Assembly: GCF_029094545.1 (NCBI RefSeq)
Contig: NZ_CP117835.1
Coordinates: 3,514,001-3,578,000 of the forward strand
Source of the DNA: Alkalihalophilus pseudofirmus
Lineage (GTDB): Bacteria; Bacillota; Bacilli; Bacillales; Bacillaceae_D
Direction of reading: 5' to 3'
DNA: 64,000 nt
Positions 3,263 to 13,946 of this stretch are shown here, piece by piece. Numbering within the stretch: position 1 is the stretch's first letter; each line of letters opens with the position of its first letter. The notes under the pieces were generated by a model. The model saw only the letters and a list, made by a program, of their open reading frames with translations, had not been told where the DNA came from and ran no database searches. A program made the translations under genes and the position numbers.

Positions 3263-3655
3263 CGCTCCTGAAATATACTGCGCTTTCCGCGTGAAGCTGC
3301 TGAGCCTCCTCGGGCTATAGCCCTGTGGGGTCTCAGCCCAGCTTTACATCACGCAGGAGTCTCCGTATATTTCATCCGCTAAGTTATTGCTTTATTGCTT
3401 TATGTAGTTATTATGTGGATCGATTTAGTCAGGTTCAGTTCAAATTATTAACCGGGCCTTTGTTTACTAAAGTCATTTAGCAGCGAACAAAAGTCGATGA
3501 GGGACCACTACACTACCTCCTCGCTCTGTTGATTGGAGCGGAAGGGACTCGACTCCTGCGGGATGTGCGTGGCCATGGGAGACCCCACAGGAGCGAAGCG
3601 ACGAGGAGGCTTCCGGACCGCCCGCGGAAAGCGAGTCCCTGCAGCGGAGATCAAC
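3263..3655 (-). repeat. Composite B-spacer-A repeat, locus 1
   Basis: Read on the minus strand this is a B element (3655-3528, 128 bp), a spacer of 147 bp, and an A element (3380-3263, 118 bp). The A element folds as nested helices: GAAATATAC with GTATATTTC, GCGTGA with TCACGC, GCTGAG with CTCAGC, and GGGC-TATA-GCCC. B has terminal GTTGATT/AATCAAC-type ends and an internal GGGACTCG/CGAGTCCC stem. A and the reverse complement of B share a skeleton (GACTCCTGCGG, CCCACAGG, CGAGGAGGCT, CGCGGAAAGCGA), so they are diverged members of one family in inverted orientation. Related copies lie at 15989, 26984 and 56945. The only ORFs here are repeat translations. Confidence 0.85.
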
Positions 3656-3660
3656 CACTA

Positions 3661-3910
3661 CTGCAGGGAGGTGTTTTTAATAGCTTCAAGTGCGTGGCCA
3701 TTATTTCTCCAACAAGAGCGGAGCGTTGCAGAAACTCCTGGGCCGCCCGCAGAAAGCGAGTCCTTGCAGCGGAAATCTACCACTACTGCAGGGAGGTGTT
3801 TTTAATAGCTTCAAGTGCGTGGCCATTATTTCTCCAACAAGAGCGGAGCGTTGCAGAAACTCCTGGGCCGCCCGCAGAAAGCGAGTCCTTGCAGCGGAAA
3901 TCTACCATTA
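3661..3910 (-). repeat. Two tandem degenerate B' units (125-bp period)
   Basis: Units 3786-3910 and 3661-3785 are almost identical to each other and repeat with an exact 125-bp step. The first ~60 bp (read on minus) match the left half of B. The remainder is a tail shared with the degenerate unit at 56821 and ends in CTGCAG. They lie directly upstream (minus sense) of the complete B copy. Confidence 0.85.
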
Positions 3911-3916
3911 TTAATA

Positions 3917-3941
3917 GGAGGGGCTGTTTCAGCTCCCTCCT
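3917..3941 (-). terminator. Hairpin after the LCP gene
   Basis: GGAGGG and CCCTCC arms with a GCTG/CAGC extension form a strong hairpin 34 bp after the stop codon at 3975. On the minus strand it is followed by an AT-rich run rather than a clean T-run, so it is only a likely terminator for the LCP gene. Confidence 0.45.
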
Positions 3942-3974
3942 TTTCATCTGCTTGATCTGTACTTTATCCGATCT

Positions 3975-4892
3975 TTAATCCTCTAACTCTAGATGTTCTT
4001 TTAGCTTAGTTGATAGGGATGCAAGCTCTTCTTCATCAGGAGAGAAATAATAAATACCGTCTTTCTTTATATCTTCTCCTTGTAATTCATGCTGTTCGAT
4101 TTGATCAATAGCCACATTATAAGTGGAATAAATGTCCCATAGTTCTCCTAAAGAGAGATTCGTTAAAACATTATCTTCTACGACTTTTAGAATATCATTG
4201 AAATTAGTGAGTGAAGAAATACTCGACCCCTTTTCCATCACCGCTTCCATTACTTCACGCTGCCTTTCTTGGCGTCCGAAATCATCATCCGGATCTAAAT
4301 GCCTCATACGAGCATAACCAAGCGCTTTTTCGCCATCAAGCTTAATCGTTCCTTCAGGGTAATGCATTTCATGAAAAGTAAACTCTTGATCATTTTCTAC
4401 CTCGATACCCCCTACCGCATCGACGGTATCTTTAAAGCTTTCCATATTCACTTTCACATAGTAATCTACCGGCACATCTAAGAAATGCTCCACCGTATAA
4501 ACAGCCGTTTCTCTGCCGCCTAAGGCATGCGCATGACTGATTTTATCTTTTGTTACATAACCTCTTATATCCACCAGCGTATCACGTGGAATACTGACCA
4601 TCTGGATCGACTCCTGATTAGGATTAATCGTTAGAAGGATCATCGTATCGCTGCGCCCAAGATCTTCTCGACCTTCAAGTTCATCTACTCCCATTAATAA
4701 AACAGAAATAGGATCTCCTTCATCTAAGTTAAGTTCTTCGAGCCGCTTTTCAGACTTTGAACGATCCAAGTTTTCTTGAATACTGCCAAAAGCAGACGTC
4801 GCAGCACTCCACACATATCCACCCGCTCCAACTACAAGTACTAGAGCAGCCGTCATTAGAATAAGGATAATTTTTTTCATTTTATCTGACAT
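3975..4892 (-). CDS. LytR-CpsA-Psr (LCP) family wall-polymer ligase
   Basis: LCP enzymes transfer lipid-linked teichoic acids or capsule-like glycopolymers onto peptidoglycan outside the membrane. This 305-residue protein has an N-terminal transmembrane anchor (residues ~7-28) and the LCP core: VLLMGVDE, RSDTMILLTINP, the arginine motif VSIPRDTLVDI, and GYARMRHLDPDDDFGRQERQREV. A GGAGGT site precedes the ATG by 7 nt. It lies 99 bp downstream of the GGT-GT2 fusion gene on the same strand, which suggests the two act on the same surface polymer; that link is inference. Which of TagT, TagU or TagV it corresponds to cannot be told. Confidence 0.88.
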   Translation of the reverse strand: MSDKMKKIILILMTAALVLVVGAGGYVWSAATSAFGSIQENLDRSKSEKRLEELNLDEGDPISVLLMGVDELEGREDLGRSDTMILLTINPNQESIQMVSIPRDTLVDIRGYVTKDKISHAHALGGRETAVYTVEHFLDVPVDYYVKVNMESFKDTVDAVGGIEVENDQEFTFHEMHYPEGTIKLDGEKALGYARMRHLDPDDDFGRQERQREVMEAVMEKGSSISSLTNFNDILKVVEDNVLTNLSLGELWDIYSTYNVAIDQIEQHELQGEDIKKDGIYYFSPDEEELASLSTKLKEHLELED

Positions 4893-4926
4893 GTCGACAC
4901 CTCCATTCTAGCTTCAGCTTAAAAGA

Positions 4927-4959
4927 CGTAAATGCCCAACAGCAGATTGAGCATTTACG
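4927..4959 (-). terminator. Intercistronic hairpin between the GGT-GT2 and LCP genes
   Basis: A perfect 9-bp stem (CGTAAATGC with GCATTTACG) is followed on the minus strand by TCTTTTA. It could partly terminate or protect the transcript between the fusion gene and the LCP gene. Confidence 0.45.
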
Positions 4960-4991
4960 ATTTATTTCCTGATTTAATTCCCCATTGCGAG

Positions 4992-7900
4992 TTAAGCAGC
5001 AGGGCTTGTCTCTGACTTTGTTTCCGTTTGATAGTTTCGGCCTGTACGAGATACTTTGTTCCAATCAGTGTTGAAGAAGTACTCAATGGTCCCGTGCATA
5101 ACAATGTACATCAGAGCAAATCGATAAACAAATACATCTAAGAGAATCGTTACAAATAAAGACGGGATATCTTTCCACCTAAATCTAAACCCGTGATAGC
5201 GATTCATAATGAGCGCAAAAATATCATAAACGACCCCGAAGATAAGCAGGAAGGTTAGATAGTACAGCACATAAGCTAGATACGATTCCGGCGGCGATAT
5301 AATCGCGTTGGCAATAAAGAAGCCGGTCATAATAAAGGCTGAAACAATTCCGACTAAAAATGATTCGAAAATATAGAAGAAAGAAACAGCCTTCCTAAAT
5401 AAGGTCTTTCTAAAGAAGGAGTGGAAATGAATCACACAATCAATATAAGCCTTCTGCCACCGTACACGCTGCTTGAAAAAGTCGGTCCATGTTTCAGGCA
5501 TCTCGGTATATGAAATGGCCTCTTTTAAATGAATAACTTTCTTATTTATATGCTTTGCGATGTACTCATGCATTTTCAGCGTGATGTCAATATCCTCGCC
5601 AATCGTTGAACGGTACCCTCCTACTTCAAGCAATGCATCTTTTCTAAAAATCCCAAATGCCCCTGAAATAACCGCTAGCGCGTGAAAACGTGCTAATGAT
5701 ATTTTGGTTATATAGAAGGCTTTTAAGAAATCAAACATTTGCAAGCGGACAAGGAAGTTAGCGTGACGCAGCGATAAACGCTTGAGCGGGTTCTTTGTTT
5801 TCGTTTGCAGGACATGCACCATCCCTCCAGCAGCAACCACATCTTGATCTTCAAAAGCCTCATTTACTTTCGGCAAGGCATTTTCAGTTAAGACAGTATC
5901 GGCGTCTAATGATACGACGATGTCCTCTCCGGCATATTCAATCCCAGCATTCAGCGCATCCGCTTTTCCTCCATTTTCTTTATCAATAACGTAAATAAAC
6001 GGATACAGTTCGGATTGATAGACACCCCTCACTCGTTTATGCGATAATTTTTGTAAAGGGTTTTTCGTACTCGGCTTAAGCTTTAAATACGTATTTAACA
6101 ATGAAAACGTCTGGTCTTTCGAGCCGTCATTAATATAAATAACTTCCTTCTTTTGATAAGGCAAGGAGCTCATATTTTTTAATGAGGTTTCGATGATCCC
6201 TTGCTCGTTGTAACAAGGAACCAACACACTGATGCCTTTTTCTTCTTCAAGCTGCCTTCTAATACTCTCACCTTTTGATTTGAACCAAGGCAGAGAATGA
6301 AGTAAATGAAGTGCAGGAAAAATAATCCCTAATATAAAGAAGACAAAAAACAGCTTCTCAAAAAACTCACTCCATTTAAATAAATCCTTAGCGTCCCATA
6401 ATCCGCTTCGTCTCAAATCAGCAATCCCCGTGATTGCCCCGTTGACTTTATTTAGCTCCAGTGCTTGAATACCGCCAAAATAGACGGCAAGCTGCCTGTT
6501 TTGAAACTGATAGCCCGCTCGTGCAATATCGCCTAATACGTCCTCAGGAAAGCCATCTTCTACATATAAGACATCATCTTCCCCGTAAAACCGTTTGGCA
6601 TCCACTGCATCTTCAAGCGGCTCATCGAAATAGAGGTGCCTTGATAACACCTGGGCCATGACAGGAGGTATTCGGTTCCCTCCAGGCGTCCCAATTCCAA
6701 TCACTCGCTCGTCCTCTACATAAATAGTAGGTGCCGATAAACTTCTTGAACGTTTATTGGGTGCATATGCGTTTGGAGAATTAGCGAACTCACTAAATTG
6801 CTCAGTAGAATTATTGATAAAAAAACCAGATGTATATTCACCAGAACCAAAGAAGTTGCTCAGAGTATCGGTCGCTGATACGACCATTCCATCAGGATCC
6901 ACAACGACAAAATGTGTCGTATCTGTTTTTTCATCATGTTCTCTTTCTTCATCAAAGATCGTTTCTTCGGATGGTTCAGAAAGTGAAATTTGACTTGCTA
7001 GCTCTTTAATATGTTCGTCGCTTGTCAGCTCGTCCACATCAACATCAGCAAATTCCGGATCCCCCACTTTTGTAATCCGCTCGTTCTTTGTAATCTTTGA
7101 AATTTCATTCATAATATGAACAAATTCAAATTCATTGTCTTTCGTTTCCTCTATATTCATTTCTTCCGCGAGAAGCATAGACTGCACAACAGAAACCCCG
7201 GCAAGAGGAGCACTTGCAGAGTATAACGTTCCATTTTCAAGCTCACCTTTTACTGCTTCAGTTCTTTCTACTTCATATGCAGCTAACTCTTCAGCATCTA
7301 TATAAGGAACTGCCGCTGTGAATTTCTCACCAATTTCCCCTGCATAAAAGGCTCTTGGCCCCATTTCCTGGATAGCCGATAATGTCTCTGCTAACTCTGG
7401 CTGCTTTAAGCTGTCTCCAGGCTCAATAGTCTGACCGTTTGGGAAGAAATGTGGAAGTTCTTCAACTGGCAGACGAGGTTTCGCAGCTTCAAGCCGTTCC
7501 CAAAGAAGATAGTCGACTTCAAACCCCTCTTCTGCAAGAGTAACCGCCGGTGAAATCAGATGTTCCATCGGTGTTAACCCAAGATCCTCATGAATCTCAG
7601 CAAGTCCTCTGACTTGTCCTGGGACGCCCGTTGATTGTTCATTCCATTCTTCATCAGATGTTGCACTTGCCCGGTAATCATACACAACCGGCTCTTCTTT
7701 CTCAGGTGGTAAAATAAGCATTTGACCGCCTCCGCCAATCCCAGATCCATATGGTTCAACTACACCTAACACATAGGAAACAGCAATTGCCGCATCAACA
7801 GCATTTCCTCCATTTTCTAGAACCTCCATCCCCGCTTCGACTGCAGCAGGGTGGGAAGCACTGACACCGTAATTATCGTATTTACTTTCTTTAGGTAATC

Positions 7901-7994
7901 CTTGTTCTTCAGCAGAAGCCGCATGCATTGGTATCAGACTGCTTAAGACAAGACTATTTATGATAAATAAAATAGCTGCTTTCTTTATAAACAA
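4992..7994 (-). CDS. Gamma-glutamyltransferase / GT2 glycosyltransferase fusion protein
   Basis: One uninterrupted frame encodes two enzymes. After a signal-type segment ending MHAASA, residues ~40-525 are a gamma-glutamyltranspeptidase: GGNAVDAAIAVSYVLGVVEP, the YDYRAS arginine, the self-processing TDTTH site (Thr359) and TPGGNRI. After a membrane segment (~547-568) comes a processive GT2 domain with PCYNEQ (593-598), NDGS, DAD (697-699), EDID (800-803) and QRVRW (842-846), then about three more membrane segments. Topology is consistent: GGT outside, glycosyltransferase in the cytosol. I choose the TTG start at 7994 because GGAGGTGA lies 8 nt upstream; an in-frame GTG at 8006 overlaps that site. 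By eye, two glutamate-binding positions of E. coli GGT (Asp433, Ser463) look replaced. The LCP gene follows. Role in making a gamma-glutamyl-containing wall polymer is inference. Confidence 0.85.
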   Translation of the reverse strand: MFIKKAAILFIINSLVLSSLIPMHAASAEEQGLPKESKYDNYGVSASHPAAVEAGMEVLENGGNAVDAAIAVSYVLGVVEPYGSGIGGGGQMLILPPEKEEPVVYDYRASATSDEEWNEQSTGVPGQVRGLAEIHEDLGLTPMEHLISPAVTLAEEGFEVDYLLWERLEAAKPRLPVEELPHFFPNGQTIEPGDSLKQPELAETLSAIQEMGPRAFYAGEIGEKFTAAVPYIDAEELAAYEVERTEAVKGELENGTLYSASAPLAGVSVVQSMLLAEEMNIEETKDNEFEFVHIMNEISKITKNERITKVGDPEFADVDVDELTSDEHIKELASQISLSEPSEETIFDEEREHDEKTDTTHFVVVDPDGMVVSATDTLSNFFGSGEYTSGFFINNSTEQFSEFANSPNAYAPNKRSRSLSAPTIYVEDERVIGIGTPGGNRIPPVMAQVLSRHLYFDEPLEDAVDAKRFYGEDDVLYVEDGFPEDVLGDIARAGYQFQNRQLAVYFGGIQALELNKVNGAITGIADLRRSGLWDAKDLFKWSEFFEKLFFVFFILGIIFPALHLLHSLPWFKSKGESIRRQLEEEKGISVLVPCYNEQGIIETSLKNMSSLPYQKKEVIYINDGSKDQTFSLLNTYLKLKPSTKNPLQKLSHKRVRGVYQSELYPFIYVIDKENGGKADALNAGIEYAGEDIVVSLDADTVLTENALPKVNEAFEDQDVVAAGGMVHVLQTKTKNPLKRLSLRHANFLVRLQMFDFLKAFYITKISLARFHALAVISGAFGIFRKDALLEVGGYRSTIGEDIDITLKMHEYIAKHINKKVIHLKEAISYTEMPETWTDFFKQRVRWQKAYIDCVIHFHSFFRKTLFRKAVSFFYIFESFLVGIVSAFIMTGFFIANAIISPPESYLAYVLYYLTFLLIFGVVYDIFALIMNRYHGFRFRWKDIPSLFVTILLDVFVYRFALMYIVMHGTIEYFFNTDWNKVSRTGRNYQTETKSETSPAA

Positions 7995-8019
7995 ATAACC
8001 GTTCACCTCCGTCTTCCTA

Positions 8020-8047
8020 TATAAAATACATTCGTATCCTATATCAA
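8020..8047 (-). promoter_or_regulatory. Candidate sigma-A promoter of the GGT-GT2 gene
   Basis: On the minus strand TTGATA (8042-8047) is 16 bp from TTTATA (8020-8025), or 17 bp from TTATAT, directly upstream of the ribosome binding site. The -10 match is weak. Confidence 0.3.
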
Positions 8048-8492
8048 TAAGACGGACCCTGCAATTGTGTGCTGAGCGGTGATAACGAGGTGGCGGCAGT
8101 CATTCTTAGTACTATTTCATTATCGTTCACTATGCTTTTTTCACCAAAAACAGAGATACACCCTAAATTAAATTAAGCACAATGATACCTTCATCTTTCG
8201 AATACCTAACATTAATCAAGACGTTTTGCACATGCATTCCCGTACTGAATTAGTTACTTCAAAACTAACCTAATTCGACTTATTCCTTTTTTACCGGCCT
8301 ATCCTCCTCTTAAAATCCAATTTTTTTACAATTTAATTAAACGAAACTAACAGAGGGTCATCCACTATTGGCATGATGCCGCTTTAACTTTTGTTCCCGT
8401 ATGAGCTAGGCATTATTTTTTTGGACAATTTTATAGGGGTTTTCATTTATTTTGGATGATTGGTATAAAAGCTGTAATCGGTTTCGAACAAT
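8048..8492. other. Intergenic region without recognisable gene
   Basis: This divergent spacer between the fusion gene and the Cys-rich protein is AT-rich. I see no ORF with a ribosome binding site, no strong hairpin and no repeat in it. Confidence 0.5.
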
Positions 8493-8517
8493 GTTTAAAC
8501 ATTACGAGTGGAGGTAT
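8493..8517 (+). promoter_or_regulatory. Candidate sigma-B promoter
   Basis: GTTTAA (8493-8498) is separated by 13 bp from AGGTAT (8512-8517), one base off the GTTTAA-N12-14-GGGTAT consensus of the general-stress sigma factor. It lies 36 bp before the start of the Cys-rich protein gene. Confidence 0.4.
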
Positions 8518-8552
8518 ACGTAGAAAGAATACAATTCTAAGGAGGGCTTTTG

Positions 8553-8882
8553 ATGTCACATGAGAAATATAAGTCAATGATAACGACGTTGCATGAATGC
8601 ATGACTGCTTGTAACCATTGTTATGACTCTTGTTTAAAAGAAGATCACCTTGAGATGATGAGAGATTGTATTCGATTAGACCGAGAATGTGCCGACATAT
8701 GCAGTTATTTTGAACAAGCTCTAGTTAGAGGCACACCTTATGTAAGTGAGCTCGCTGCCTTATGTGCAAAAATTTGCGAGGATTGTGGAAATGAGTGCAA
8801 AAAGCACGATCACGACCACTGCCAAAAATGTGCAGAAGCATGCTTTAAGTGCACGGAAGAGTGCAGAAAATTAGCAGCTTAG
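8553..8882 (+). CDS. Cys-rich four-helix copper-storage-like protein (DUF326)
   Basis: This 109-residue protein has 16 cysteines, mostly as CxxxC and CxxC pairs on predicted amphipathic helices, plus a His cluster (KKHDHDHC). This is the pattern of the DUF326/Csp3 family, four-helix bundles that bind many Cu(I) ions in the cytosol; no signal peptide is present. The ATG at 8553 follows AAGGAGGG at ideal spacing; a TTG codon immediately before it is not needed. A sigma-B-like promoter suggests stress induction. It is a single-gene unit ending in a strong terminator. Copper as the metal is family-based inference. Confidence 0.85.
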   Translation: MSHEKYKSMITTLHECMTACNHCYDSCLKEDHLEMMRDCIRLDRECADICSYFEQALVRGTPYVSELAALCAKICEDCGNECKKHDHDHCQKCAEACFKCTEECRKLAA

Positions 8883-9744: not shown

Positions 9745-10156
9745 ATGTTAGAAAAAAACTGAAGCTGCTTATTTAGCCGGAATTATTGATGGGGAAGGTA
9801 CAATTTCTTTAACTAGAGCGCATTTGAAAGAAAATCGTAGACCTGTTATTTCTATACCGAGTAATGACAGGGAACTATTAGACTACATTAAGAACCTGGT
9901 TGGAGGTTACATTACATCAAAGAAAAACTACAAGCCTGGAACTCATAAAGATTCTTATGTTTTATCGGTCAAGAATAAAAGTATGGTTATGAGTATTCTA
10001 AGAGACATTATTCCCTATCTCAAAATAAAACAAAAGAAATTACGGGCTCAATTTATATTAGATCATTACGAAAACGTGACTTGTCGGAATGGTAAATACA
10101 CTGATGAAAAATTAATATTAAAACGAAAATTCGAGCAAGATTTTTTCTCTTTATAA
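9745..10156 (+). pseudogene. LAGLIDADG homing endonuclease, frameshifted
   Basis: A start ATG at 9745 follows AAAGGAG at good spacing, but a run of seven A's (9752-9758) puts the frame into a TGA after five codons. Removing one A restores a frame of about 136 residues that begins TEAAYLAGIIDGEGTISL, the LAGLIDADG helix and catalytic acid of this endonuclease family, and runs to the stop at 10156. One LAGLIDADG motif means it would act as a homodimer. It lies on the opposite strand immediately beyond the 3' end of the intron-containing tmRNA gene, so it may have mobilised that intron. It could also be read at low level by slippage on the A-run, or reflect a sequencing error. Confidence 0.75.
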
Positions 10157-10205: not shown

Positions 10206-10843
10206 TGGTGGAGACGGTGGGACATGTAATTCCATGCTTTCGCAATGGCACTGACTATATCTTGAACTTGATCAACAAGTCCCTTGGCGTATTATGGAAC
10301 ATATATTTTATGCAATCTATTGCAGAATGCTCCATCCTAGTACTACCTTGTAGGCAGCCTATAAGTCGATACACGGCTGTTGGATTGCTCCACATACCGC
10401 TCGGCATCACCTTATCATAACGTATTCGTCATGACGTAGACTTCACCGATAAAGCCAAGTTATCACTCATGCGTCACCACATGAGGCGACTATTCCCATA
10501 ATCGAACCCACGTCCAGAAACAACGACACTTATGCTTCTACGAGTGTAGTTACTGTATTAGCATTTCGCCAATTCTTCTGCCCAGTAACAGGCGTCCGAA
10601 CGGCTAGTCTGATCAATCTCTTCCTTCGCTCACAGACGGAGAGCAGCCGGCGTAGCCCACTTAGAGTGAGTTCCAGTACCTACCACATGGGCGATGGAGG
10701 GTGGAACCGCAGAGTGCTATTAGGCAGCTACTGCGAAGTTGTTGTTTTCTTTGCCAGTTATAGGCTTTGGCGTTTTAACGAGGCCGACCCCCTCGACTCG
10801 CAACATAAGCACGACCTATCCCTGTCGAATCCTAAACGTCCCC
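10206..10843 (-). ncRNA. ssrA: tmRNA (ssrA), interrupted by a group I intron
   Basis: tmRNA rescues stalled ribosomes and tags the stalled peptide. The 5' end at 10843 begins GGGGACGTTTAGGATTCGAC, the 3' end reads CACCGTCTCCACCA to 10206, and the tag frame GGC AAA GAA AAC ... TAA TAG encodes GKENNNFAVAA. The span is 638 nt, but removing the intron at 10223-10500 leaves exons of 343 nt (10501-10843) and 17 nt (10206-10222), together 360 nt, the usual Bacillus length. The joined T-arm reads GTGGG-TTCGATT-CCCAC, a perfect 5-bp stem with a 7-nt loop. It lies just after smpB, its protein partner. Confidence 0.95.
10223..10500 (-). other. Group I self-splicing intron in the T-loop of tmRNA
   Basis: The 278-nt insert splits the tmRNA T-loop after TTCGAT. 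P1 can form from exon CGAT plus intron, CGATTATGGGAATAGTCG (10487-10504), placing the conserved U-G wobble at the 5' splice site. The intron ends in G (ACATG) before exon TCCCACC. Core elements on the minus strand are the S sequence AAGATATAGTC (10253-10263), a Q-like AATCCAACAGCC, and an R-like GACTTATAGG that can pair with S to make P7. A P2 hairpin CTCATG/CATGAG and a P9-like CCAT/ATGG hairpin are present. No ORF lies inside. Folding was done by eye; subgroup is not assigned. Confidence 0.9.
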
Positions 10844-11570: not shown

Positions 11571-13946
11571 TTAACGTTTTTTCTTACGTCCTTTTTTACG
11601 CTTCACACTTGGCGCATTCTCATAAAAAGCACGTTTCTTTTTCTTCTTACTAGAACCATTACCGCCCTCGCTTAAATTAAGCCCTTTGCTGTTTCCTTTT
11701 TTACTGCGCCCGCCTCGTCTACGGTCGCCTTCTTCGCCGCCTTGACCTGCGCGTTTTTTTCGTTTACCGCCTTCAATGACTTTCGGACGGCCGCGGCCTT
11801 CTCGCGGTTTACGCGGCTTCATGCCTACTACTTCAAAATCAATTGAAGCTTCGTCGACATTAACATTGAGCACACGTACTTCAATTTCATCTCCAATACG
11901 GAAGACTTGGCCGGTACGCTCACCGATCATCGCATATTGCTTCTCATCATAGTGATAGTAATCATCTGTTAAGTAGCTGACATGCACAAGACCTTCAATT
12001 GTGTTCTCAAGCTCAACAAACAAGCCAAAGTTGGTCACACCGCTGATCATGCCTGGGAACGTTTCACCAATTTTATCTTCCATATATTGAGCTTTTTTCA
12101 CACTGTCGGTATCACGTTCTGCCTCCACCGCACGACGCTCCATTTCCGATGCGTGTCGAGTAAGATCTGGCAGCTTTTCACGCCAATGCTCCTGCGTCTC
12201 AGCATCGACATTGCCCTTGATTAAATACGTACGAATTAATCTGTGGACAAGTAAATCCGGATAACGACGGATTGGAGATGTGAAATGTGTGTAGAACTCT
12301 GTCGATAACCCAAAGTGGCCTAAGCTGTTCGGGTCATATTTTGCTTGCTGCATCGAACGAAGCATAACCGTACTGATCACCGTTTCCTCAGGCTCGCCTC
12401 GAACTTCTTCTAAAAGCTTCTGCAACGCACGTGGATGAACCGTGTTGGCATTTCCGCGTACGACATAGCCGAAGTTTGTAATAAACTCTAAGAATTTAGT
12501 GAGCTTTTCAGCATCCGGGTCTTCGTGAATACGATAAACAAACGGCAGCTTCAGCCAGTGGAAATGCTCAGCAATCGTTTCATTCGCTGCCAGCATAAAT
12601 TCTTCAATTAAACGCTCAGCTACAGAGCGTGAACGAAGAACCACATCATTTGCTTTTCCTTCTTCATCCACAAGAACCTTTGCTTCTTTAAAGTCAAAGT
12701 CAATGGCTCCGCGCTCAAAGCGTTTGTTGCGAAGAATCGCTGCAAGCTTCTCCATTGCTTCAAAATTTGGAACAAGGGACTCATAGCGAGCTTTTACTTC
12801 TTCATCATTATCCACTAGAATCTTATTCACGTCTGAATAAGTCATTCGCTCAGTTGTTTTAATCACACTTTGGAAAATCTCGTGGTTAACCACTTGTCCA
12901 TCAGGCGTGATTTCCATTTCACACGACAATGTTAAACGGTCCACTTGTGGATTCAAACTACAGATTCCATTTGAAAGTCGGTGCGGAATCATTGGAACAA
13001 CTCGGTCTACTAAATACACACTAGTCGCCCGATCAGCCGCTTCCTTATCAATAGGCGACCCTTCTGTGACATAATGACTGACATCAGCGATATGAACACC
13101 TAGTAAGAAGTTCCCGTTACTAAGCTGCTTTACATGAACCGCATCATCTAAATCTTTCGCATCGGCGCCGTCAATCGTGACGATCACTTCATCTCTGAGA
13201 TCACGGCGGCCTTCGATATCTTTTGGATCAATTTCATCACTAATTGAGTTGGCATGCGAAAGCACCTCATCTGTAAATTCAAGCGGAATGCCGTGCTTGT
13301 AAATAATCGAGAGAATGTCCATCCCTGGGTCATTTTTATGCCCAAGAATTTTCGTCACTTCTCCTTCTGCACTCATTCGGCCTTCAGGGTACTTCGTAAT
13401 AGATACGACGACTTTATGTCCGTCAACAGCACCTTTATTTGCAGTACTTGGAATTAAAATATCATTTGGAATACGCTTGTCATCAGCTACAACCATTCCG
13501 TATGAATCATGATCTAAGTATGTCCCCACTACATCGGTGACACCCCGTTCTAAAATACGGACAACCTTTCCTTCAGGCCTGTCACCTCTTGAATGCTGGT
13601 GCAAACGGACAAGTACCGTATCACCATTCATCGCACTTTCAAGGTCTGCTTGAGATACATACACATCTTTCTCTCCCTCAATATCAGGGATAATAAAGGC
13701 GAACCCTTTGGCATGTCCTTGTACACGGCCTCTGACAAGATTCATTTTTTCCGGAACCCCGTAACGGTCGCTTCTTGTACGAACGACAAGACCACGGGCC
13801 TCCATTTCATTTAATGATTTCACTAGCTCTTTAAAGTTCTCGCTACCTTCTACTTGAAAAACCTCTTCAAGCTCAGCTACAGAAACGGGCTTCTCGGCTT
13901 CGTCGCGAAAGTAGGTCAACAGTTGCTGGATTTGTTCTTCATTCAT
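11571..13946 (-). CDS. rnr: Ribonuclease R
   Basis: RNase R is a processive 3'-5' exoribonuclease that degrades structured RNA and mRNAs released by trans-translation. The 791-residue protein has an N-terminal winged helix, cold-shock-like RNA-binding domains, an RNB catalytic domain with the acidic motif [15 protein letters not shown], a C-terminal S1 domain ([27 protein letters not shown]) and a long Lys/Arg/Gly-rich tail. AAAGGAG precedes the ATG. Together with smpB and ssrA it forms the ribosome-rescue cluster. Confidence 0.97.

Follow-up and report, generated by a model that had tools for sequence, protein, structure and literature searches.

A CapD-like gamma-glutamyltransferase domain fused to a processive-type family 2 glycosyltransferase in Alkalihalophilus pseudofirmus and other spore-forming bacteria

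Polyglutamate occurs as a free polymer, as a capsule that CapD links to peptidoglycan and as a component of teichuronopeptide, a wall copolymer that is considered helpful to alkaliphiles at high pH, and the LytR-CpsA-Psr (LCP) enzymes that anchor glycans to the wall usually act on lipid-linked substrates. According to passages of a review, CapD cuts poly-gamma-glutamate (PGA) and forms amide bonds with peptidoglycan, and PGA anchoring is impaired in mutants of two N-deacetylases that are thought to create the amine on N-acetylglucosamine (PMC7759979). Passages of two papers describe teichuronopeptide of Halalkalibacterium halodurans C-125 as an alkaliphile wall polymer in which gamma-polyglutamate is combined with a glycan (PMC8153356, PMC5938343), and as consisting of poly-gamma-L-glutamate and polyglucuronic acid (PMC8153356); tupA is named there as involved in its synthesis, and the enzyme of the peptide-glycan bond is not stated in the passages concerned (PMC8153356, PMC5938343). 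Here a gene is described that joins two known kinds of enzyme, a CapD-like gamma-glutamyltransferase (GGT) and a processive-type family 2 glycosyltransferase (GT2), in a layout that is new to the authors. It lies at positions 4992-7994 of a 64,000-nucleotide stretch of the Alkalihalophilus pseudofirmus genome (the window; NZ_CP117835.1, positions 3,514,001-3,578,000), and the fusion occurs in some spore-forming bacteria. No description of a GGT-GT2 fusion was recognised in the literature by titles and the beginnings of abstracts, a coverage in which subscription journals are thinly represented.

The gene is read on the minus strand as 1000 codons followed by a stop, the plus strand of the same interval being full of stops. 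Its likelier start is a TTG at 7994 with GGAGG just upstream, about where the other fusions start; an alternative upstream GTG would give 1004 amino acids. The N-terminal half matches the Pfam profile PF01019 over residues 57-531 (4.3e-104, 349.6 bits, profile positions 2-512 of 512), and with this full domain, a Thr nucleophile (Thr359, from the TDTTH site) and the Gly-Gly pair it belongs to the GGT superfamily. The other half matches PF00535 at residues 589-789 (2e-24) as well as PF13641, PF13632 and PF13506, the GT2 profiles together spanning 589-917, and carries DAD, GEDID and QRVRW motifs that start at residues 697, 799 and 842. Hydropathy peaks at residues 6-24, 548-566, 881-899, 912-930 and 947-965, with a weaker peak at 765-783 within the GT2 fold, give one membrane helix before the GT2 catalytic region and three after it, and the positive charges flanking the helices fit a GT2 domain in the cytosol and a GGT domain outside. 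An earlier note on this DNA had proposed a single chain of GGT and GT2, ordered as signal, outside GGT domain, membrane, cytosolic GT2 domain and membrane, with TDTTH, DAD, EDID and QRVRW as its motifs; the translation, the Pfam matches to both domains, the hydropathy, the flanking charges and the models bear this out.

In the full-length AlphaFold2 model (mean predicted local distance difference test score, pLDDT, 88.1), the GGT domain ends a few residues ahead of the first membrane helix, which suggests that it should sit close to the membrane, and the predicted template modelling score of only 0.66 leaves the relative placement of the two halves uncertain. Just ahead of the nucleophile, residues 356-359 of the 1004-residue model have pLDDT values below 50, which fits a loose loop and is not a test of cleavage.

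The intact fusion is present in nine genomes that represent eight species, seven genera and four families of one order. Full-length homologues are 61-71% identical in the seven other species and 99% identical in A. pseudofirmus OF4 (G009), and among the eight fusions the GGT halves share 55-75% and the GT2 halves 65-83% identity. The searches, in which the order and the phylum were covered by samples rather than complete sets, found full-length fusions in 3 of 41 genomes (that of the window, G009 and G013), in 4 of 397 genomes sampled from the order (that of the window, G216, G388 and G150), and further in 2 of 35 (G425, G216), 1 of 16 (G150) and 3 of 29 (G444, G446, G388). Among 249 genomes sampled over the phylum, none beyond the window's own matched at E 1e-130, a threshold that weaker fusions would escape, and none of the 125 plasmid records with a match reached 80% query cover, phage records lying outside the search.

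Among described enzymes, CapD (PDB 3g9k, 3ga9) resembles the GGT half most closely: it is likewise an N-terminal nucleophile hydrolase with a Thr-Thr-His site, it is the closest in sequence, and like most of the fusions it is found with capB/C/A-type genes, whereas only the domain described here is fused to a GT2 synthase. The L and S chains of CapD match at 236.8 and 152.6 bits (389 in total), compared with 238.5 for the whole precursor of Bacillus licheniformis GGT, the best whole general GGT among solved structures, and the small subunit alone also prefers the CapD S chain (Table 1). The GGT half shares 26-27% identity with the general GGTs encoded in the window's genome and in G425. In a tree of 32 GGT domains, made quickly and without bootstraps as was the GT2 tree, the eight fusions and three lone GGTs form one clade (Shimodaira-Hasegawa-like approximate likelihood ratio test, SH-aLRT, 100), which joins G033 and three pgs-cluster CapDs with a support of 93. 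On these four grounds the identification as a general GGT was rejected, and the GGT half appears closest to CapD, the PGA transpeptidase. The general GGT profile TIGR00066 gives 316.9 bits, below its curated cut-off of 357.85, and cannot separate CapD from general GGTs, as two pgs-cluster CapDs pass it with 368.5 and 391.4. The function guessed in the earlier note is therefore kept in outline, with a CapD-like enzyme in place of a secreted general GGT.

All eight fusions keep the nucleophile, the Gly pair and the Arg residues at the positions numbered 408, 432 and 520 in CapD. When CapD residues are counted from its nucleophile, which is presumably Thr352, the acceptor residue called Arg423 in a review is the aligned Arg432 here. 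Passages of one paper discuss two Arg positions for acceptor binding in CapD (PMC8062742). Alignments place Gln399 and Leu419 of the window's fusion at the positions of E. coli Asp433 and Ser463, where changes had been noticed earlier by eye. The Asp433 position is Asn (18 of 21) or Thr (3 of 21) in other CapD-like rows and Gln, Tyr or His in seven of the eight fusions (Asn in one); that of Ser463 is Phe (18) or Tyr (3) in the other rows and Leu (6), Ser (1) or Phe (1) in the fusions; and that of Gln430 is Ser in seven fusions and Ala in one. At all three positions the fusion clade differs from most CapDs. In E. coli GGT, a terminal donor is bound at its free amino group by Asp433, so loss of this residue would remove the pocket for the amino group and would suit a donor within a polyglutamate chain. 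The further pocket changes may, as they are read here, mark a shift of substrate in the fusion clade.

The GT2 half resembles the hyaluronan, chitin and PgaC/IcaA-type synthases in its D, DAD, GED and QxxRW motifs and in its fold, and unlike them it is fused with an extra outer enzyme domain and scores below the synthase cut-offs. All 31 aligned rows keep the NDGS, NGGKAD-type, DAD, GED and QxRW positions without variation, and the features of processive GT2 synthases (D, DxD, GED, QxxRW and membrane helices) are all present according to the alignment, the models and the hydropathy. The model of this half has a pLDDT of 84.8, and its best fold matches are hyaluronan synthases (E 3e-17, TM-score 0.62 by query length), followed by chitin and cellulose synthases. 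The best NCBIfam match, PgaC_IcaA, reaches 141.6 bits, far below the TIGR03937 cut-off of 422.3; membership in the PgaC/IcaA, NodC and CelA families was rejected because the scores fall below the NCBIfam cut-offs.

An LCP gene is the next gene downstream of the fusion in all eight species, in agreement with the earlier idea of a wall glycopolymer; that of the window scores 160.2 with TIGR00350 (cut-off 62.3) and 373.1 with the TagU equivalog, below its cut-off of 441. Genes for PGA synthesis lie directly upstream on the same strand in six of the eight species, in the order pgsB-pgsC-fusion-LCP in G425 and G216, pgsB-pgsC-pgsA-fusion-LCP-deacetylase in G444 and pgsB-pgsC-pgsA-capD-fusion-LCP in G446, G388 and G013; the window's species and G150 have fusion-LCP. 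Cluster representatives were verified with Pfam and NCBIfam, PgsB and PgsC exceeding their equivalog cut-offs. The gaps measure 213-657 bases upstream of the fusion and 61-244 bases between fusion and LCP gene. In the window, the latter gap holds a terminator-like hairpin (Table 1), one of 9 such sites in 3900-8700, where shuffled sequences have 3.0 on average; no inverted repeat of at least 12 lies between fusion and LCP gene in four other species, so the hairpin looks unconserved.

Comparison with lone GT2 relatives (56-63% identical) separates the two associations. At 11 loci (L072-L082), which are the best lone GT2 matches of the order search and not all lone GT2 genes, an LCP gene is adjacent in 9, a polysaccharide deacetylase in 3 and a pgs gene in none; the contig of L079 measures only 10.9 kb, two of the loci (L077 and L078) are near-copies, and for L078 only gene clustering was used. 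Adjacency to pgs thus differs between fusions (6 of 8) and lone GT2 loci (0 of 11) with a Fisher p of 0.001, a value that is too strong, as are all the Fisher tests here, because related species are counted as independent. These findings suggest that the pgs link follows the CapD-type domain and the LCP link follows the GT2 domain. In addition, PgsC is present in nine of nine fusion genomes, and in ten of ten with the split genome G371, compared with 70 of the 397 genomes sampled from the order, counted over the cut-off, and 5 of the 15 genomes with a close lone GT2 (at least 54% identity, G371 being left out as split). In G425, the only PgsC of the genome sits in the pgsB-pgsC-fusion-LCP cluster and no CapD-like protein besides the fusion was found, the one further GGT being a general one at 27%; its single PgsA-family match lies outside the cluster. 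The identity of the domains and the link of the fusion to PGA are well supported. The peptide-modified glycan of the earlier note holds in outline, except that the pgs clusters point to polymeric PGA made by PgsB/PgsC and not to single glutamyl units.

Several further observations concern these loci. The pgs locus of the window's genome (L083:4978-7947 and 11864-13321) contains another GT2 of 410 amino acids between two open reading frames without a Pfam match, and its pgs/capD cluster includes a protein with three NlpC/P60 stretches; NlpC/P60 relatives, possibly PGA hydrolases, also occur near pgs or CapD genes in L070, L099, L101 and L103. G150 carries three consecutive CapD-like genes downstream of pgsBCA (L102:3809-9228), its fusion being elsewhere in the genome. 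Among the lone GT2 genes, that of G146 is accompanied by an LCP gene broken into two frames (L076:10884-11787), and a distant one (42-43%) in G010, of the window's genus, adjoins a secreted reading frame that by eye resembles a GH16 glucanase (L084:9459-11639), a locus at which clustering showed neither an LCP nor a pgs gene within 20 kb.

Separate copies of the two halves occur in G371 and G444, each with a divergent pair in which LCP-GT2 and a fusion-type GGT occupy opposite strands, and G444 holds both the intact fusion and such a pair. The fusion-type GGT of G371 bears two LysM wall-binding domains where the GT2 would be, and the GT2 of this pair falls among the fusions in the tree and has an apparent remnant of the fusion's signal peptide, which suggests that this split is probably derived. 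The split GT2 of G444, on the other hand, branches outside the fusions in the GT2 tree, and its pair may represent an ancestor-like arrangement from before the fusion. The fusion state has to change twice in the GT2 tree and three times in the GGT tree, where at least two changes are forced by starred branches; a single origin of the fusion would fit only with later splits or losses. That the halves stay neighbours when they are apart supports a shared task. In a region of about 28 kb (L099:6748-8586, L100), G444 also has, in addition to the fusion, at least two GGTs of the fusion type and a second pair of GT2 and LCP genes.

These comparisons show the fusion and its conservation, which domains it contains, that their motifs are intact and which genes surround it. 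How the two halves might work together can be sketched from them, and we infer the substrates, the acceptor, the cleavage, the role of LCP and the sequence of steps as follows. The GT2 half would polymerise a nucleotide sugar in the cytosol and extrude the glycan through its own membrane helices. The CapD-type half, outside and near the membrane, would mature by cleavage before Thr359 and would then stay tethered to the synthase through its small subunit. It would cut PGA supplied by PgsB/PgsC and hand the acyl-bound chain to an amine. Since a hyaluronan-, chitin- or PgaC-type synthase with a deacetylase nearby could offer amines in its own product, grafting is proposed, with a de-N-acetylated amino sugar of the emerging glycan as the likeliest amine; the hint of a deacetylase is drawn from a single fusion locus and from three loci of lone GT2 genes. 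Finally, the neighbouring LCP enzyme would tie the glycan to peptidoglycan, and a strongly acidic copolymer of PGA and glycan would result, bound to the wall and similar to teichuronopeptide in idea. A route to teichuronopeptide by way of tupA (PF14305), the gene named for that polymer, was rejected: no homologue was found in the window's genome, and two of nine fusion or split genomes have one, so the link is one of idea and not of shared genes. The coupling of gamma-glutamyl transfer to glycan export, already suggested in the earlier note, is judged likely. That the protein is a membrane-bound enzyme coupling two polymers, PGA and a glycan, has about an even chance of being right, and the narrower proposal, a single-chain conjugating synthase that grafts polyglutamate onto the glycan as it emerges and so yields a peptide-glycan wall copolymer, is offered tentatively, at somewhat under even chances.

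A number of observations weigh against this proposal. Foldseek with the full model ranks whole general GGTs above the CapD chains, which are stored as separate chains, and the fold matches to hyaluronan synthases have root mean square deviations of 8.6 and more. Arg432 is also present in E. coli GGT and Arg520 in Bacillus GGTs, so that the kept Arg positions are no proof of CapD activity, and two of the eight fusions have Trp where E. coli GGT has Arg114. The pgsB, pgsC, pgsA and capD genes of the window's genome lie about 270 kb from the fusion, and those of G150 are likewise not adjacent. A polysaccharide deacetylase stands beside only one of the eight fusions, at the end of the G444 cluster, and a separate capD beside three (G446, G388 and G013), which indicates that the task of CapD has not simply been taken over. 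LCP adjacency is alike for fusions and lone GT2 genes (p 0.49), and the product of a hyaluronan-type synthase, not being lipid-linked, would be an unusual LCP substrate in comparison with known LCP systems. Furthermore, the upstream gaps and the hairpin before the LCP gene of the window mean that a single transcript is not established.

The strongest rival to the grafting proposal, itself rather unlikely, is that the CapD-type half anchors PGA to peptidoglycan while an independent glycan is made by the GT2 half, and that the fusion provides only co-localisation or equal dosage of two wall polymers. CapD, the closest relative, has peptidoglycan as its known target according to the review (PMC7759979), the LysM wall binders that replace the GT2 in G371 point the same way, and so does G425, where no CapD-like protein other than the fusion was found; however, the separate capD in three fusion clusters would then be redundant, the pocket residues of the fusion clade set it apart from other CapDs, and the split copies remain beside GT2-LCP.

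It is improbable that the GGT half mainly trims or releases PGA and so sets its length at the surface, with the tie to the synthase serving for placement and with no covalent bond between PGA and glycan. Such a role would draw on the depolymerising activity also described for CapD (in passages of PMC7759979) and on a report of short-chain L-PGA as a wall polymer of B. halodurans (PMC3815933), but it leaves the synthase fusion and the LCP partner unexplained, and both Arg positions considered for acceptor binding in CapD are kept, one or other of which is also found in general GGTs. More improbable still is an action of the GGT half on small gamma-glutamyl compounds such as glutathione, or the addition of single glutamyl units, unrelated to PGA: the fold and the catalytic set are the same as in general GGTs, against which stand the pgs clusters in six of eight species, PgsC in every fusion genome, the CapD-like sequence and the separate general GGTs present in several fusion genomes. 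An assembly or gene-calling artefact that joined two genes, for which the separate genes in G371 and G444 could speak as the kind of relatives that the earlier note had looked to for a refutation, is refuted by the intact fusion in nine genomes of eight species, including OF4 at 99%, and by the position of the split genes on opposite strands, where no single stop separates them.

Table 1. Coordinates in the window of the fusion gene, its regions and the adjoining LCP gene
Feature	Position	Strand	Evidence
Gene for a 305-aa glycopolymer ligase of the LCP family, 99 bases downstream of the fusion	3975..4892	-	PF03816, 172.4 bits
Terminator-like hairpin between fusion and LCP gene	4927..4959	-	14 pairs and T-rich tail; consensus match only
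Fusion gene, CapD-like GGT domain then processive-type GT2 synthase, 1000 aa	4992..7994	-	Translation, Pfam, structure-chain matches, full model
Signal peptide region, about residues 1-28	7911..7994	-	Hydropathy peak 6-24, first helix of full model; region end by eye
GGT large-subunit region, residues 45-358	6921..7862	-	CapD L chain 3g9k_L, 236.8 bits
GGT small-subunit region from Thr359, residues 359-532	6399..6920	-	CapD S chain 3g9k_S, 150.9 bits vs 89.3 for next chain
First membrane helix after GGT domain, residues 548-566	6297..6353	-	Hydropathy 2.32; helix in models
GT2 catalytic region, residues 585-880, NDGS/DAD/GED/QRVRW	5355..6242	-	Pfam, motif alignment, fold search
Three C-terminal membrane helices, about residues 875-975	5070..5372	-	Hydropathy peaks at 881, 912, 947; models

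Elsewhere in the window, a small Cys-rich DUF326 protein (PF03860) is encoded at 8550-8882 on the plus strand, divergent from the fusion gene, and a 125-base tandem repeat of 2.3 copies (3618-3907) lies between the LCP gene and a gene that by eye resembles those for glycerol-3-phosphate dehydrogenase. The transfer-messenger RNA (tmRNA) gene was found with Rfam at 10499-10835 on the minus strand (157.2 bits) and was missed by ARAGORN; near it, at 9824-10156 on the plus strand, is a LAGLIDADG endonuclease-like reading frame that is shorter than the OF4 copy (160 aa, PF00961) and interrupted.

To conclude, the fusion is a concrete candidate for the enzyme of a peptide-glycan wall bond in the laboratory alkaliphile A. 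pseudofirmus OF4. If the grafting proposal is true, a first candidate would be at hand for the enzyme that connects the peptide and glycan parts of a polymer like teichuronopeptide, and if the protein is active, it could serve to make PGA-glycan conjugates.

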